Shown piece after piece: positions 18,156 through 23,880 of a stretch of DNA of 64,000 bases. The notes under the pieces are model-generated. The model had not been told where the DNA came from and did not search any database. It was given only the letters and a program-made list of their open reading frames with translations. Within the stretch, counting starts at the first letter, position 1. Every line of letters starts with the position of its first letter. The DNA lies in the NCBI RefSeq assembly GCF_002079305.1, contig NZ_CP015039.1, positions 1,571,501 through 1,635,500 of the forward strand, in the 5' to 3' direction. Source of the stretch: Rhodovulum sp. P5. Its GTDB lineage: Bacteria > Pseudomonadota > Alphaproteobacteria > Rhodobacterales > Rhodobacteraceae. A program made the translations under genes and the position numbers.

Positions 18156-18662
18156 ATGATGACCTACCTACATTCACAAACCGCGAAAGCCGAACTGACC
18201 GCTGCCCTTGAGAAAGACAAGGCGGCTCAGCAAGTGCAAGATCAATCCCCGCTCAAGACCAAGAAGGACATTCGGGGCTTCTGGGCACAGTTCCCGAAGA
18301 CCCGTGACCTTTTCGGGGAGATCATGAACAAGTGGCGGAAGTCGGGATCACGCCGTCCCGGCCATGAAGGCTTCTGGGCCGCGTGGCCATATCGGGATTG
18401 GAGCGCAGCCACCGGGCTGCCCATCGCCACCTTGAAGCGGCACCTGAACACCCTTGAAGAAAACGGGCTGATTGAGCGCACCCTTGGGCGGCATGGGGGC
18501 AGCCGGGTGCTGACTTTCATCCGCCCCACGCCCCTCGCGCTTTACCTGAGCGACGTGAAGGCGGGTGACTGGCAGCGGCTGGGAATACCTCTCCAAACTG
18601 ACTTCGCGGACACCCTTCCCCCGAGTGTTCTGGAGGCAAATCCTGAACTTCTAGAGGGCTGA
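18156..18662 (+). CDS. Winged-helix DNA-binding protein, possible replication initiator of the island
   Basis: A 168-aa protein. The ATG at 18156 follows an AGAGGAA site; a GTG at 18132 is an alternative. Residues about 55-125 look like a winged helix (FWAAWPYRDWSAATGLPIATLKRHLNTLEENGLIERTLGRHGGSRVLTFI), in which SAATGLPIATLKRHLNTLEENGLI is the helix-turn-helix. The N-terminal part is charged. The first recognisable gene after attL, it is followed by a 12-bp tandem repeat, an AT-rich stretch and hairpins, the layout of a Rep gene and its origin. A role as initiator or as repressor is inferred; no replication-protein catalytic motif is visible. Confidence 0.55.
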   Translation: MMTYLHSQTAKAELTAALEKDKAAQQVQDQSPLKTKKDIRGFWAQFPKTRDLFGEIMNKWRKSGSRRPGHEGFWAAWPYRDWSAATGLPIATLKRHLNTLEENGLIERTLGRHGGSRVLTFIRPTPLALYLSDVKAGDWQRLGIPLQTDFADTLPPSVLEANPELLEG

Positions 18663-18723
18663 AATAGCGCGTAGCGTCGGGGCAAATCTGCGTCGTGGGT
18701 CGGCGCAATATTGCACCCATAGT

Positions 18724-18768
18724 GAGCTAGTCCATGAGCTAGTCTGTGAGCTAGTCTGTGAGCTAGTC
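18724..18768. repeat. 12-bp tandem direct repeat (iteron-like)
   Basis: Four head-to-tail copies of GAGCTAGTCTGT: the first has CCAT at its end, the second and third are identical, the fourth is cut to 9 bases. A run of AT-rich sequence (18,769-18,820) follows. The CTAG core makes this unlikely to be chance. It is a candidate origin or operator for the winged-helix protein encoded just upstream. Confidence 0.6.
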
Positions 18769-18808
18769 GATTACACAGTAATATTCACTTCGTTCATATT
18801 CCTATCCA

Positions 18809-18895
18809 ACTCCTTTTTACCAAAAGGAGTAATCCTCTTCAGCAAACGCATCCGCGTTTGCGCTGGCTTCGCCTCCCTTCGGGTGACTTCGGGAG
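18809..18895. other. Cluster of three hairpins beside the tandem repeat
   Basis: ACTCCTTTT (18809-18817) pairs with AAAAGGAGT (18822-18830). GCAAACGC (18842-18849) pairs with GCGTTTGC (18854-18861). CTCCC (18873-18877) pairs with GGGAG (18891-18895). Together with the tandem repeat they fill the 527-bp gap before the portal gene, in which I see no convincing ORF. They may be part of an origin or end transcription. Confidence 0.5.
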
Positions 18896-19300
18896 AAGAG
18901 AAAACAGATTTGACAGAATGACCCCGGAATACCCTCCACCCCCCATAGCCCCCCGCCTCCCGCGATCAGAAACCGGATGCAGGCAAGTTCACCCGATCCA
19001 ACACTTGGCACAACCTGTTGCGGGGTGGGTGAGAATTTACACCATGCGTTGACGAAACCTCTTGGCCCGCACCCCGGCTTCGGCTAGATTGTTTGCAGCT
19101 TTGTTGATCGGCGGTTTCGGCCCGCCTCTGGCATCAACGAGCGGGAGGCACCCGTAAGCATTTCTTCCATGCTTGCCGAGGTGCCCGCCGTGTGGCCTTT
19201 CACGAAACCCGAACCCAAGATCGACACCGCAGCCGCTGCCCCGGCTGAGGCCCGTTCCCTGTCCGATCCTGACGCTTGGCTCTTCGAGTATCCGTCTTGA

Positions 19301-20236
19301 TCAAGCAGTTTTGGGGGTCCAAACGCGGTCTGCTTTGACGAGTGCGTTTGCGGTTTCGATCAGCTTGCGCATGATCGCGACGATGGCGACTTTTGCGGGT
19401 TTGCCAGCCGCGCGCAGGGCGTCGTATTTTGCCTTCAGATCCGGGTTGTATCGCATTGCCACAAGCGCCGGCATGTAGAGGGCATCGCGCAAGGGTTTGC
19501 GTCCGCCGCAGATGAAGGACCTGCCCTTCCACTGCCCTGAATCGCGATTGTAGGGCACCACGCCCGCAAGGCTGCCCACCTGGCGGCGGTCCAGCGTCCC
19601 GATCTCGGGCAGGTAGGTCACGATTGCGGCGCTGGCGACGCTTCCCAGACCGGGAATGGAGGTGACGATCTCGCGGCGCCGCGCGGTGGTTTTGTCGGCC
19701 TGGATCAGGGCATCGATTTCCCGGTCAAGCTCGGCAATGTGCTTTTCCACCAAGGCCAGACGCGCTTTCGTCTGGCGCTTCAACACTGTGTTCGTTTGCA
19801 CATATGCGCGGTTTTTCAAGCGCGTGCGGTCCTTGATCAGGGCCGTGCGCGCAACCTGCAGGTCTTTGAGAACACGTGTTGTTTTCGCAACCGGAGTGTC
19901 CGGTTCCAGCTCCAGGGCCACCCCCATGCGGGCCAGGCCTTGCGCATCCAACGCATCGGTCTTGGCCCGTGTGCCACAGGCCTCGGCGAACCGGCGCGCC
20001 TGCAGCGGGTTGACCTTTACCAGGGGAAGCCTGTCGCAAAACCGCTCTTCGAAAGCGCGATGATACGGGCCGGTGGGTTCGTACACCACACGGGCGATGG
20101 GCGCCTTGCCCAGCCATTCTTCAAACGCCCGAAATCCGCTGGTCGAGGTGTCAAAACGCGTCGCAGCGCCGCGTTCTGCGTCGAAAACATCCAGATGGGA
20201 TTTCGAAATGTCCACGCCGATGGTATGGTCTGTCAT
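19301..20236 (-). CDS. IS110-family transposase (DEDD recombinase)
   Basis: A 311-aa transposase. The N-terminal RuvC-like DEDD domain starts TIGVDISKSHLDVFD, with the second acidic residue in VVYEPTGPYH (E) and further acidic residues in TDALDAQGLARMG. The C-terminal Transposase_20 part has SIPGLGSVASAAIVTYLPEIG and the catalytic-serine region GVVPYNRDSGQWKGRSFICGGRKPLRDALYMPALVA. The ATG at 20236 is preceded by GGAG; a GTG 9 bp upstream is possible. It is full length for the family with no visible frameshift, so it may be active. Confidence 0.92.
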   Translation of the reverse strand: MTDHTIGVDISKSHLDVFDAERGAATRFDTSTSGFRAFEEWLGKAPIARVVYEPTGPYHRAFEERFCDRLPLVKVNPLQARRFAEACGTRAKTDALDAQGLARMGVALELEPDTPVAKTTRVLKDLQVARTALIKDRTRLKNRAYVQTNTVLKRQTKARLALVEKHIAELDREIDALIQADKTTARRREIVTSIPGLGSVASAAIVTYLPEIGTLDRRQVGSLAGVVPYNRDSGQWKGRSFICGGRKPLRDALYMPALVAMRYNPDLKAKYDALRAAGKPAKVAIVAIMRKLIETANALVKADRVWTPKTA

Positions 20237-20442
20237 CTTCTCCACGTCCTATGCTTGTCATGCGTGCAGCCACACGCGTATCCGTTCAGGCCCAGGGGGA
20301 AGACGGCGGTCGATCAAACTCGAGAACGGTCCTTCAAAAGACCCAGCACCTTACGATCCAACCGCCGCCACTGCACGCCATAAATGGCGTGGCGTGCAGT
20401 GGCCTCCAATCCTTCGGAAGCCTGCGGTTTTGATAAGACAAG
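20237..20442 (-). ncRNA. Candidate bridge RNA encoded in the IS110 leader
   Basis: This 206-nt non-coding leader has a 13-bp hairpin (20368-20380 with 20390-20402). A second stem (GGCGGT 20305-20310 with ACCGCC 20361-20366, plus GATC/GATC inside) encloses a loop containing TCGAG on the minus strand, which could pair with CTCGA at the right target junction. Downstream on the minus strand, ACGGATAC (20285-20278) is identical to the transposon's own end sequence at 19295-19288. GACAAG (20259-20254) is complementary to the other end, CTTGTC. Those are the expected left and right donor guides. The left target guide is not clear. Confidence 0.6.
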
Positions 20443-21561
20443 CTTTTCGGGGCCACCTCTGCCACCTCTGGCGTGACGGTGAGTGCCACCACCGCTTTGC
20501 GTGTCCCTGCCGTCTCTGCCGGGGTGAAGGCTATCGCCGAAGCCGTGGCGATCCTCCCCCTTCATGCCTACCGACGCCAAGCCGATGGCAGCCGGGAACG
20601 CACCGCAGTTGCTCCCGCCACCCTGCTGAACGGTGACGCCAACCCTTGGACCCGTGGCCCCCAGCTTCGGGAACTTCTGACCTCCGACGCCATCGCCTAT
20701 GGCAACGGCTTCGCCGTCATCGTGCGGGATGGCGAAGGCGCACCGCGTGAACTTCACCGCGTCCACCCTCAATCTGTTTCTGTGGACGTGGACCCGGTGA
20801 GCGGGGAACCCCGTTACCGCATCGGATCGCGCACCCTGAACTTCATGGACGTGCTGCACCTGCGTGCCCCGTGCCCCACCTCCACCGATGCCGTGACGGG
20901 CAAATCCCCGCTTCTGGAAGCCAAGGACGCCATCGGGCTGCTGATTACCCTCCAAGGCCACGCCTCCCGCCTCTTCGCCAACGGGGGCCGCCCCTCGGGC
21001 ATCCTGAGCTTCCCCCAGCGTCTTGGGGCCGAAGTGGCGAAGCGCATCAAGGTAAGCTGGCAGGCCGCGACCTCGGGCGGCAATTCCGGCGGCACTGCCG
21101 TGCTGGAAGAAGGCGGAAGCTTCACCCCGCTCAGCTTCAACAGCGTGGACAGCCAGTTCCTCGAAATCTGGGCACTGTCCATCACCGAGGTGGCCCGCGT
21201 CCTGCGTGTCCCGCCTGTGCTGCTGATGGATTACAGCCATCAGACTTGGGCCAATGCCGAGACGGGTGGGCAACAGTTCCTGACCTACTCCCTTTCGCCC
21301 TGGCTGGCCCGTTGGGAGGCAGAAGTCACCCTGAAACTGATCGCCCCTGAGGATCGCGCCAGCGTCTTTTTAGAGCACCTGACCGATGCCCTGTTGCGGG
21401 CTGACTTCGCCACCCGTGCCACCGCTTACGGGCAATATCGCAGCATGGGAGCGATGACCGCCAATGAGGTGCGGGCGGGCTGAACCTGCCCCCGCTGCCC
21501 GGCGGGGATGCCCTGCAGAACCCCTACACCACCAGCGCCACCACGACCGAGGGGACCGCCG

Positions 21562-21930
21562 ATGAGTGATCTTCCCGCCTTCCGTTTCTTCTTTGGCGAT
21601 GCCGAACGCAGCTTCCGCCTCACCCCTGAATTGGTGGGGGAGCTTGAACGCCTGACAAGCACCGGCATCGGCGGCTTCACGCGCCGCTTCTTCCAAGGGG
21701 ATTTCCGGCTTGCTGATCTTCACGCCGTCATCCGGCTGGGACTGATCGGCGGGGGCGAAGCACCGAAAGAAGCCGATGCCCTTGTTTCCGCATACGCCGT
21801 GCCCCGCCCCGTGATGGAAATCTTCCCTCTGGCCTTGGGCATTCTCGAAATCCTGATGTTTGGCACGGTGCAGGACACCGCCGGGGGAGCCGAAATCCCA
21901 ACCGTTGGGAATTCGGAGGAACCAGCGTGA
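21562..21930 (+). CDS. Gene-transfer-agent-family / tail-assembly-chaperone-like protein
   Basis: A 122-aa protein starting at the ATG that overlaps the lost portal stop (GATGAGTGA). The pattern FRFFFGDAERSFRLTPELVGELERLTSTGIGGFTRRFFQGDFRLADLHAVIRLGLIGGG is like the short GTA/phage tail chaperones (PF11836 type), which have a beta-hairpin and then helices. Its place between portal and protease genes is unusual for a tail chaperone. A second chaperone-like gene is at 24403. The C-terminal codons include a palindromic repeat also found at 32554. Confidence 0.5.
   Translation: MSDLPAFRFFFGDAERSFRLTPELVGELERLTSTGIGGFTRRFFQGDFRLADLHAVIRLGLIGGGEAPKEADALVSAYAVPRPVMEIFPLALGILEILMFGTVQDTAGGAEIPTVGNSEEPA
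21893..21913. repeat. Palindromic repeat, copy 1
   Basis: AAATCCCAAC, one base, GTTGGGAATT: near-perfect 10-bp arms. The same two arms recur at 32554-32574. This copy lies inside the coding end of the chaperone-like gene, encoding EIPTVGN. Its flanks extend the pairing further (CCGAA with TTCGG). Confidence 0.6.
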
Positions 21931-22172
21931 GCAAGGGACCGGGGAAAATCCAGCGGGCGATTGTCGCGCTCTTTGAAGCAGAACCTCACAGCCGCCTGAC
22001 AGTGCCTCAGATCGCAGCCCGCGCCTATCCGGGGGAGACCATCGGCAAGAGCGAAACCGAGGCTGTGCGCCGCTCTCTGCAAGGGATCGCCCCGCAAATT
22101 GGCCTGACCCGCTGCCGGATTGCCCGGCCTGATGGGCAAGGCTGGCACCACGTTTATGGGAGGGCCGCATAA
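21927..22172 (+). CDS. Small winged-helix-like protein
   Basis: An 81-aa basic protein, MSKGPGKIQRAIVALFEAEPHSRLTVPQIAARAYPGETIGKSETEAVRRSLQGIA..., with the pattern of a winged helix: helix 1 at IQRAIVALFEAE, turn at LTVPQIAARAYPG and recognition helix at KSETEAVRRSLQGI, ending in a short wing. Its start overlaps the previous stop by 4 nt (GTGAGCAAG: TGA at 21928-21930) and its TAA abuts the protease start. It is therefore embedded in the head operon. Similar small proteins accompany phage head genes; its role is unknown. Confidence 0.6.
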   Translation: MSKGPGKIQRAIVALFEAEPHSRLTVPQIAARAYPGETIGKSETEAVRRSLQGIAPQIGLTRCRIARPDGQGWHHVYGRAA

Positions 22173-22727
22173 GTGTTTGAACCGATGAACTTGCCTGCAA
22201 TCGAAACCCGCAAGGGCCACGGCACCGAAACCGCCGATGCCGAAGTGCGTTTCACCGCTCCCAGCGACACGGGGGAGCTTGAAGGGATCGCGGTGCGCTT
22301 CAACGTGGCTGACAGCTACCGCAGCGAGTTTGCCCCGCAGGCTTTCACCTCTGCCCGCACCCCCATCCCGATGCTTTGGAGCCATGACCCGGCGCAAGTC
22401 ATCGGATCATGGACCAGCATTGAAGCCCGTGCCGATGGGCTGGCCGTCAAGGGAAAGCTCAATCTGGCCGTGGCCAAGGCTCAGGAAGTGCGGGCGCTTC
22501 TGCAAGCCGGTGACGTGGCGGGGCTATCGGTGGGCTTCCGCACCCTGAAAGACGAACGCAGCGCCACGGGCACCCGCCGCATCACGCAAGCCGACCTCAA
22601 GGAAATTTCCATCGTGGCCTTTCCTTCGGTGCCCGGCTCCCAAGTCACCAGCACCCGCAGCACCGCCAATATCACCGCGCTGACCAAGGCCATTCGGGCC
22701 GCAACCACCTCCATCAAAGGGAACTGA
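22173..22727 (+). CDS. HK97-family prohead protease
   Basis: A 184-aa protein starting at GTG with GGGAGG 9-10 nt upstream. Typical features are ELEGIAVRFNVADSYRSEFAPQAF, the catalytic-His region PMLWSHDPAQVIGS and the Ser region AGDVAGLSVGFRTL, followed by LKEISIVAFPSVPGSQVTS. This serine protease cleaves the scaffold part of the capsid protein during head maturation. It sits directly before the capsid gene, as in HK97-like phages. Confidence 0.88.
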   Translation: MFEPMNLPAIETRKGHGTETADAEVRFTAPSDTGELEGIAVRFNVADSYRSEFAPQAFTSARTPIPMLWSHDPAQVIGSWTSIEARADGLAVKGKLNLAVAKAQEVRALLQAGDVAGLSVGFRTLKDERSATGTRRITQADLKEISIVAFPSVPGSQVTSTRSTANITALTKAIRAATTSIKGN

Positions 22728-22728
22728 C

Positions 22729-23880
22729 ATGAAAGACCTGATGACCCCGGCGCTTGAAACCCGCCAAGACCCCGAGAACACCACCGATCCTGTTGCCGAA
22801 GCCACCGAAGCCGTGACCGAGCTTCGCACGGCAGTGACGGAACACCAGACCCGGCAGACCACCGAAATGCGTGGCGTGACCGACCGTCTGGCGGCACTGG
22901 AAACCCGGATGAACCGCCCCGGCACAGGCACCGAGACCACCACCGAACCGGGGGCTGAACAGCGTGCTTTCGCCGCTTTCGTCCGCACCGGGGTGGAGCG
23001 GATGCAGGCGGAAGAAGTCCGCGCCCTGACCGTCTCTACCGACACGGCAGGCGGCTATCTGGCACCGGAACAGTTCCTTGCCGAACTGGACCGCAACCTT
23101 GTGGAGTTTTCCCCGATCCGGGCCGCTGCCCGCGTGGCCTCCACCTCTGCCGGTGAAATCCTGCTGCCGAAGCGCACCGCAGGCCCCACCGCCTCTTGGG
23201 TGGGTGAAGGCGGCACGGTGGGCGGCACCCAACCGACCTACGGGCAACAGAAGATCACGGTGCATGAGCTGGCCTGTTATGTGGACATCTCCAACCGCCT
23301 TCTGGAAGACAGCGCGTTCAACATGGATAGCGAACTTGCCTTCGATTTCGCCGAGGAATTTGGCCGGGCGGAAGGTTCCGCGTTTATCAACGGCACGGGC
23401 GATGCGAACAACCAGCCCAAGGGGCTGCTGACCGAAACCGGCATTGATGGCATCACTTCGGCAGGAGCCAGCATCGGCGTTGATGACCTGATTGACCTGT
23501 ATCATTCGCTTCCGGGTTTCTACGCATCGCGGGCCGTCTGGGCGATGAACCGCAGCACCATCGGGGAGGTGCGGAAGATCAAGACCATCTCGGGGGATTA
23601 CCTCTGGCGGGATGCTCTTGCAGAAGGCAACCCGCCGACCATCTTGGGCCGCCCTGTCATCGAGTTCCCGGACCTGCCCGACGCCGATGCAACCGAAATC
23701 CCGATCATCTTCGGCGATTTCGGCAGCGGCTTCCGCATCTTCGACCGGGTGAACCTTTCGGTGCTGCGCGACCCCTACAGCGTCCAGACCTCGGGGCTTG
23801 TCCGCTTCCATGCACGCCGCCGCGTTGGCGGGGGCATGACCAAGGCCGAAGCCTTCAAATTCCTCACTATGGCCGCCTGA
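22729..23880 (+). CDS. HK97-family major capsid protein
   Basis: A 383-aa capsid precursor. The first about 100 residues form a helical, acidic delta-domain (TEAVTELRTAVTEHQTRQTTEMRGVTDRLAALETRM) that acts as scaffold and is probably cut near residue 100 by the protease. The HK97 fold follows: STDTAGGYLAPEQFLAELDRNLVEFSPIRAAARVAST, GEGGTVGGTQPTYGQQKITVHELACYVDISNRLLEDSAFN and GTGDANNQPKGLL. Length and order are normal, so this gene looks intact. Confidence 0.93.
   Translation: MKDLMTPALETRQDPENTTDPVAEATEAVTELRTAVTEHQTRQTTEMRGVTDRLAALETRMNRPGTGTETTTEPGAEQRAFAAFVRTGVERMQAEEVRALTVSTDTAGGYLAPEQFLAELDRNLVEFSPIRAAARVASTSAGEILLPKRTAGPTASWVGEGGTVGGTQPTYGQQKITVHELACYVDISNRLLEDSAFNMDSELAFDFAEEFGRAEGSAFINGTGDANNQPKGLLTETGIDGITSAGASIGVDDLIDLYHSLPGFYASRAVWAMNRSTIGEVRKIKTISGDYLWRDALAEGNPPTILGRPVIEFPDLPDADATEIPIIFGDFGSGFRIFDRVNLSVLRDPYSVQTSGLVRFHARRRVGGGMTKAEAFKFLTMAA

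Follow-up and report, generated by a model that had tools for sequence, protein, structure and literature searches.

A probable bridge-RNA-guided IS110-group insertion sequence in Rhodovulum sp. P5 and guide–target covariation among its relatives

The window analysed here, a 64,000-nucleotide stretch of the Rhodovulum sp. P5 genome, carries on its minus strand (positions 19289..20442) a complete IS110-group element composed of a transposase gene and a leader of 206 nt, with CT as the core at both junctions. Judging from its sequence and that of its relatives, it is very probably an insertion sequence which moves by bridge-RNA-guided recombination. A sequence-only reading of this DNA had proposed a bridge-RNA system with a CT core, and the proposal is now supported by covariation in the RNA stems, between guides and targets and at a “handshake” base, as well as by a promoter-like spacing of 17 bases across the joined ends, part of which is built into the way the ends were found.

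The element, its two copies and their insertion sites

With one core counted, the element measures 1,154 bp. The genome holds two copies, identical over all 1,154 bases including the guides, and the sequence common to copy 1 (in the window) and copy 2 is exactly that of window positions 19284-20443, beyond which the flanks differ. The bases shared in addition to the element itself are target bases that the two sites have in common: TCGAG, core included, to the left and C to the right. The core CT lies on the minus strand at 20441..20442 (left-end junction) and at 19287..19288 (right-end junction) in both copies, with no longer target duplication. The left end of the element reads CTTGTC and the right end GACGGATA followed by the core; the left end is long and non-coding, and at the right end only 12 nt follow the gene. 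The limits and CT junctions suggested earlier are borne out by copy 2, the sole other copy in this genome, which has identical ends between different flanks. The leader length given earlier, counted from 20442 to the ATG at 20236, is also correct. Among the relatives CT occurs at 60 of 62 left junctions, a count in which only the C was free to vary, because the left-junction finder needed TTGTC and thereby fixed the T. An IMG/VR viral contig (L177, also L169) contains this element too, joined at its left end to the same flank; the phage collection gave no match to the element.

Copy 1 interrupts a prophage portal gene on the plus strand. The 5' fragment of this gene (19169..19288) is open up to the junction and has no Pfam match when taken alone; the 3' part (20443..21483) matches Phage_portal (PF04860, E 3.8e-88 on 20473-21483) and the PHROG portal family (E 4.3e-90), with no match in the phage collection. 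Joining the flanks at the core restores an open frame of 386 codons, compared with a stop after 43 codons when the insert is present. A search for a close intact relative of the gene in 61 genomes returned, beyond its own copy, short partial matches in four. The interrupted portal gene belongs to a set of prophage head genes at 19169-23880 that also includes a prohead protease and the major capsid protein, and its interruption suggests that the prophage is defective. Copy 2 (L002) splits a VirB8-like gene, the halves of which (1018-1500 and 2601-2861 of L002) match VirB8 profile positions 1-144 and 142-213, and the adjoining frames resemble conjugation genes by eye. Both copies lie inside other mobile DNA.

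The transposase gene (19301..20245, minus strand) has 314 codons when read from a GTG, the ATG at 20236 behind a GGAG being the likelier start. Its product has both domains of the IS110 group, the DEDD (RuvC-like) domain (Pfam DEDD_Tnp_IS110) and Transposase_20 with the catalytic serine. It aligns with IS621 chain 8wt6_A over residues 7-305 (E 2.5e-29, 106 bits) and with ISCro4 chain 9t56_A over residues 7-305 (PDB 9t56, E 1.9e-27), the protein being the level at which ISCro4 was compared. According to the part of the source available to us, the catalytic residues of IS621 are D11, E60, D102, D105 and S241 (PMC11208158), and each of them has an identical counterpart in the alignment (hand count, chain offset of 2). 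The nearest transposases in the genome collection come from Roseovarius and Marivita bins. One relative, L003, has a protein 89% identical and may be stranded, since the ACGGATACT right end cannot be recognised there.

The poor fit of the left target guide, described below, might be taken as a sign of a decayed, immobile element with drifted guides. The intact transposase frame, the presence of the catalytic residues and the identity of the two copies, which extends to the guides, make this reading very improbable, and we continue to treat the element as a presumably mobile one guided by its leader RNA.

Structure of the leader RNA

A covariance model, which the sequence-only reading had named as a check, was built from 26 leaders (our own and 25 relatives; of the 27 distinct leaders listed, L027 was left out) aligned from the left end to the start codon. 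The consensus fold includes 39 predicted pairs, 21 of which show at least one two-sided compensatory change, and the fold of the leader beats 200 of 200 shuffles (z -4.24). DNA-level structure and covariation together point to a structured leader with a 5' stem-loop (20367..20403, minus strand), where 9 of 12 predicted pairs have two-sided compensatory changes, followed by two internal loops.

The model (R1) places the putative bridge RNA at 20252..20403 on the minus strand with 154.4 bits, a score to be read with its own sequence among the 26 model builders, and at E up to 1 the window has no other match. The Rfam search over 18500-21000 at E up to 1 gave no match. The model matches in 43 of 394 family-level genomes at E 1e-6, and at E 1e-10 in 30 of 390 order-level and 12 of 385 class-level genomes; these sets overlap, each contains our own genome, and the large searches were strictly filtered.

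Covariation of guides and targets

The evidence that loop bases, and not only stems, follow the insertion sites comes from the relatives. Among 97 distinct RNA records the left junction was found in 69 and the right end in 49, four of the latter being weak (13/19 bases; L080, L089, L072 and L138). The left guide was set aside by hand in nine records and typed by hand in two, and the right guide in four and two, respectively, giving 66 records with a left guide and junction and 44 with a right guide and end, or 64 and 43 distinct pairs for testing. The right ends of L080 and L089 are almost surely false; they are within the 43-pair test and outside the per-position tables. Five late-added loci are absent from the left test because their guide was not parsed, and L294 has no recognised left end.

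For the 64 distinct left insertions the mean local score of guide against target is 5.25, compared with 3.62 after re-pairing, and for the 43 right insertions 4.86 of 7 bases match, compared with 2.79; in both cases 0 of 5,000 re-pairings reach the observed value. Re-pairing keeps relatedness, in that the sites are distinct and elements with the same guide are included. Guides covary with targets on both sides across the related elements, as a bridge-RNA system would demand.

Position by position, the left guide gives 41, 29, 29, 24, 26, 18 and 16 Watson–Crick matches at -1 to -7 in 42 insertions (those, among the 64, with a guide that ends in CT and then T or G), against shuffled means of 22.0, 12.8, 12.6, 12.4, 11.5, 10.3 and 11.4. 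The signal ends at -6 or -7, because the value at -7 is reached by 109 of 2,000 shuffles. The right guide matches at +1 to +5 in 39, 38, 38, 32 and 25 of 41 insertions and fades at +6 (10 of 41, reached by 99 of 2,000 shuffles); this table drops elements that lack a CT-starting right end at that register, L040 and L049 among them. The readable target is about -1 to -6 or -7 on the left, the core, and +1 to +5 on the right, which is the IS621 layout of seven bases, core and five bases. A control within each locus compared the insertion's own site with the CT sites of its flank. The own site was matched or beaten by no more than 5% of them in 29 of 40 cases on the right and 28 of 64 on the left, and by more than half of them, a poor fit, in 14 of 64 on the left and 1 of 40 on the right.

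Viral contigs supplied further loci. An 18-base pattern found nine stretches, three of them already in the set; the other six, kept outside the statistics, all match the RNA model (6/6). A 14-base pattern gave at least three RNA-model matches, from 80 loci, and the new loci of a further 14-base pattern were left out of the counts. Together with L198 and L188, the six viral loci cover four different sites on the left and three on the right. Core included, the right guide TTTCTGAG of L256 and L291 fits its target CTTCTGAG at seven of eight bases plus one wobble, the right guide GTATTGAG of L292, L289, L293 and L198 (the last already in the per-position set) fits its target GTATTGAG at 8 of 8, and that of L290 fits at only 6 of 8. 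On the left, counted by hand over seven bases, L256 and L291 have four matches and one wobble, L290 has six and L188 has three and one wobble; the left guide of the L198 group is TGTCAGC and its target CGTGAGC.

Donor guides, handshake bases and promoter

The left donor guide ACGGATAC (20278..20285, minus strand) matches the right end of the element, and the right donor guide GACAAG (20254..20259, minus strand) is the reverse complement of the left end CTTGTC. Both had been recognised earlier from sequence, and each indeed occurs once in the RNA match, in the order then given. They fit the predicted circle junction, ACGGATACTTGTC (donor read ACGGATA-CT-TGTC), at 8/8 and 6/6 bases. In the 26 leaders ACGGATAC is found in 23 and GACAAG in 24, at the same place. 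The left donor guide matches at 8/8 in 35 of 42 distinct elements, our own included; the seven below this value comprise at least one (L049) that results from wrong parsing. Covariation can hardly be tested here because the donor guides vary too little, L030 being the only one of the 42 elements changed in both donor end and guide.

More can be learned from the bases next to the guides. In IS621, as described in the part of the report available to us, the bases that flank the right guides form pairs with the DNA opposite them once the strands have been exchanged (PMC11208158). In our set the donor-loop base two places after GACAA (C at 20253, minus strand, in the window element) can pair with the core-adjacent target base in 56 of 62 insertions, both own copies included, compared with a shuffled mean of 32.6 and with 0 of 5,000 shuffles reaching 56; six records without the GACAA motif were left out of this test. 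Three tests offset to neighbouring positions gave no excess, and where the base is other than C, 15 of 18 insertions still pair. It is unpaired in six of the 62 insertions and also in L256, L291 and L188. Its counterpart in the target loop (T at 20318, minus strand) faces a donor A in 43 of 45 records and is too nearly invariant for a covariation test.

The near-invariance of the donor-guide motifs could also be expected if they were protein-binding sites, and the poor left guide of our element would suit a leader which served some other role, such as translation control or binding of the protein to DNA ends, with the protein alone picking the targets. What makes this extremely improbable is the guide–target covariation: loop bases, beyond the stems, follow the insertion sites of the relatives, to the left and right alike and also for the handshake base. 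We therefore retain the bridge-RNA reading for the leader.

A further likeness to IS621 concerns transcription. A -35-like box TTGATC lies in the right end (19299..19304, minus strand) and a -10-like box TATCAA in the left end (20430..20435, minus strand), and joining of the ends would set them 17 bases apart, an arrangement also described for the IS621 circle in the part of that report available to us (PMC11208158). In every one of the 37 distinct two-ended elements, joining the ends leaves 17 bases between a TTGA-like and a TAT-like hexamer; this regularity is largely built in because the ends were found by consensus, the 19-base consensus of the right-end finder favouring donor ends that are conserved as well as this spacing of 17 bases. 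Scanned for promoters in its integrated state, the element shows none at the leader and one plus-strand site within the gene, as would be expected of a leader promoter that forms in the circle only.

Fit of the target guides at the element's own sites

In the window element, the left target guide TAAGGTG (20347..20353, minus strand) takes its register from the relatives, with covariation at -1 to -6, and is followed by a core-matching CT at 20345-20346; the right target guide TCTCGAG (20319..20325, minus strand) consists of five bases and AG for the core, with covariation at +1 to +5. The site of copy 2, GATGACG-CT-CGAGA, fits the right guide at 5/5 bases and the left guide at three Watson–Crick and two wobble pairs of seven. 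At the site of copy 1, CGAAAAG-CT-CGAAG, the right guide has three matches and one wobble of five and the left guide two Watson–Crick and three wobble pairs of seven (left tallies were computed, right tallies made by hand). The TCGAG of the target loop, suggested earlier to pair with CTCGA, can do so at both insertion sites, and the poor left fit noted for the window copy is found in the second as well.

With seven left and seven right bases scored together, 0.08% of the 6,101 CT sites in the window do at least as well as the site of copy 2, and 2.95% at least as well as that of copy 1. Taken alone, the left score is reached by 10% and 19%, respectively, and the right score by 0.08% and 5.7%; therefore it is the right guide that carries the evidence at the element's own sites. 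With a free-register left score, 24.5 and 37.5 of 63 other targets outrank the own target of the two copies. Nine insertions with similar left guides (the two own copies and seven relatives, picked by hand) have a left fit at -7 to -2 of 2.78 of 6, against 1.33 (0 of 3,000 reaching it), and the other 33 insertions have 3.55 of 6, against 1.78 for random targets. Conceivably, the window element has a “loose” left guide working mostly by wobble, with five of seven pairs allowed in both copies, a fit which by itself lies within chance.

The sequence-only reading had suggested that the left misfit may reflect an off-target insertion. Given the shares of CT sites that score as well, this is plausible for copy 1 but less likely for copy 2. 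For copy 1 we put the chances about even that a bridge-RNA element went off target by partial guide pairing, the handshake and the first three right-target bases being sufficient: its right guide matches at +1 to +3, is mismatched at +4 and wobbles at +5, and its left guide pairs mostly by wobble. For IS621, off-target insertions are reported in the part of the source available to us, and those that occur often tend to have one or two mismatches (PMC11208160). Yet no more than 2.95% of CT sites reach the total score of this site, and the tolerance of the guides is judged from two copies only. The earlier suggestion of a target specificity different from that of IS621 holds in the sense that the related elements carry other guides.

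Related lineages and the AT core

In L057, the L198 group (L198, L292, L289 and L293) and L290 the left junction is AT and the right junction CT, at three different sites, and in all of these A replaces C at the core position of the left guide. Such junctions fit a target core AT and a donor core CT with the top strand cut after the core. It is conceivable, at somewhat less than an even chance, that natural elements can re-specify the guide base which faces the core. Since the use of an AT core by IS621 in the laboratory has already been reported (PMC11208158, available to us in part), the novelty would be limited to a natural, guide-encoded AT core.

 L150 has GT at the left junction and belongs to a subgroup (L040, L049, L052, L071, L120, L123 and L150) with GGTCAG in the right guide, in several members of which the left guide reaches only to the core, which it does not match; the element end in L040, L049 and L052 is ACGGATAACTT. 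By eye, the left flank appears palindromic in the alphaproteobacterial elements L127-L133, L137 and L160 (one of them from a Shinella plasmid), as if these elements aimed at REP-like repeats. L070, L295 and L296 share the same right guide and nearly the same target sequence, which by eye resembles an IS3-type transposase gene.

Proposed mechanism and relation to known systems

By analogy with IS621, we suggest that the element would be excised as a circle, in which the right-end -35 and left-end -10 boxes are brought together across the junction, so that the leader is transcribed. The leader RNA would bind the transposase, its donor loop pairing with the circle junction and its target loop with genomic DNA over some seven bases, the CT and a further five. 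Next, the top strands would be cut after the core and exchanged with the help of the handshake pairs, and the resulting junction resolved.

The element shares with IS621 of Escherichia coli a leader upstream of the transposase gene, the order of 5' stem-loop, target loop and donor loop, the CT core, a target of about 7 + 2 + 5 bases, handshake pairing, a -35 box in the right end with a -10 box in the left end, and the catalytic residues, the IS621 features being those given in the available parts of PMC11208160 and PMC11208158. It differs in that its protein is only a distant relative (106 bits) and in its donor, ACGGATA-CT-TGTC, and target guides. Those features of the IS621 type which can be looked for in sequence are present in this branch of the family; in the window element itself the left guide fits poorly. 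In the seekRNA elements of the IS110 and IS1111 families, an RNA from a non-coding region likewise guides target choice, and in IS1111 the guide RNA usually lies downstream of the gene, with subterminal inverted repeats (PMC11187229, available to us in part), whereas the long non-coding end of our element is upstream. A right-end guide RNA of the IS1111 type was not found, as 12 nt follow the gene and the RNA model matches the leader alone. Among the literature matches listed, no title or abstract dealt with bridge RNAs of this branch, and the surveys of PMC11208160 and PMC11187229, of which parts were available, may well include relatives.

The element leaves the known bridge-RNA mechanism unchanged and is a further example of what has been described. 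Its contribution is a branch, mostly from Alphaproteobacteria, whose guide code is readable from natural insertions alone and in which the published layout (7 + core + 5, plus handshake) was recovered independently. The elements of this branch, with their different guides on related proteins, represent a set for testing programmability away from IS621.
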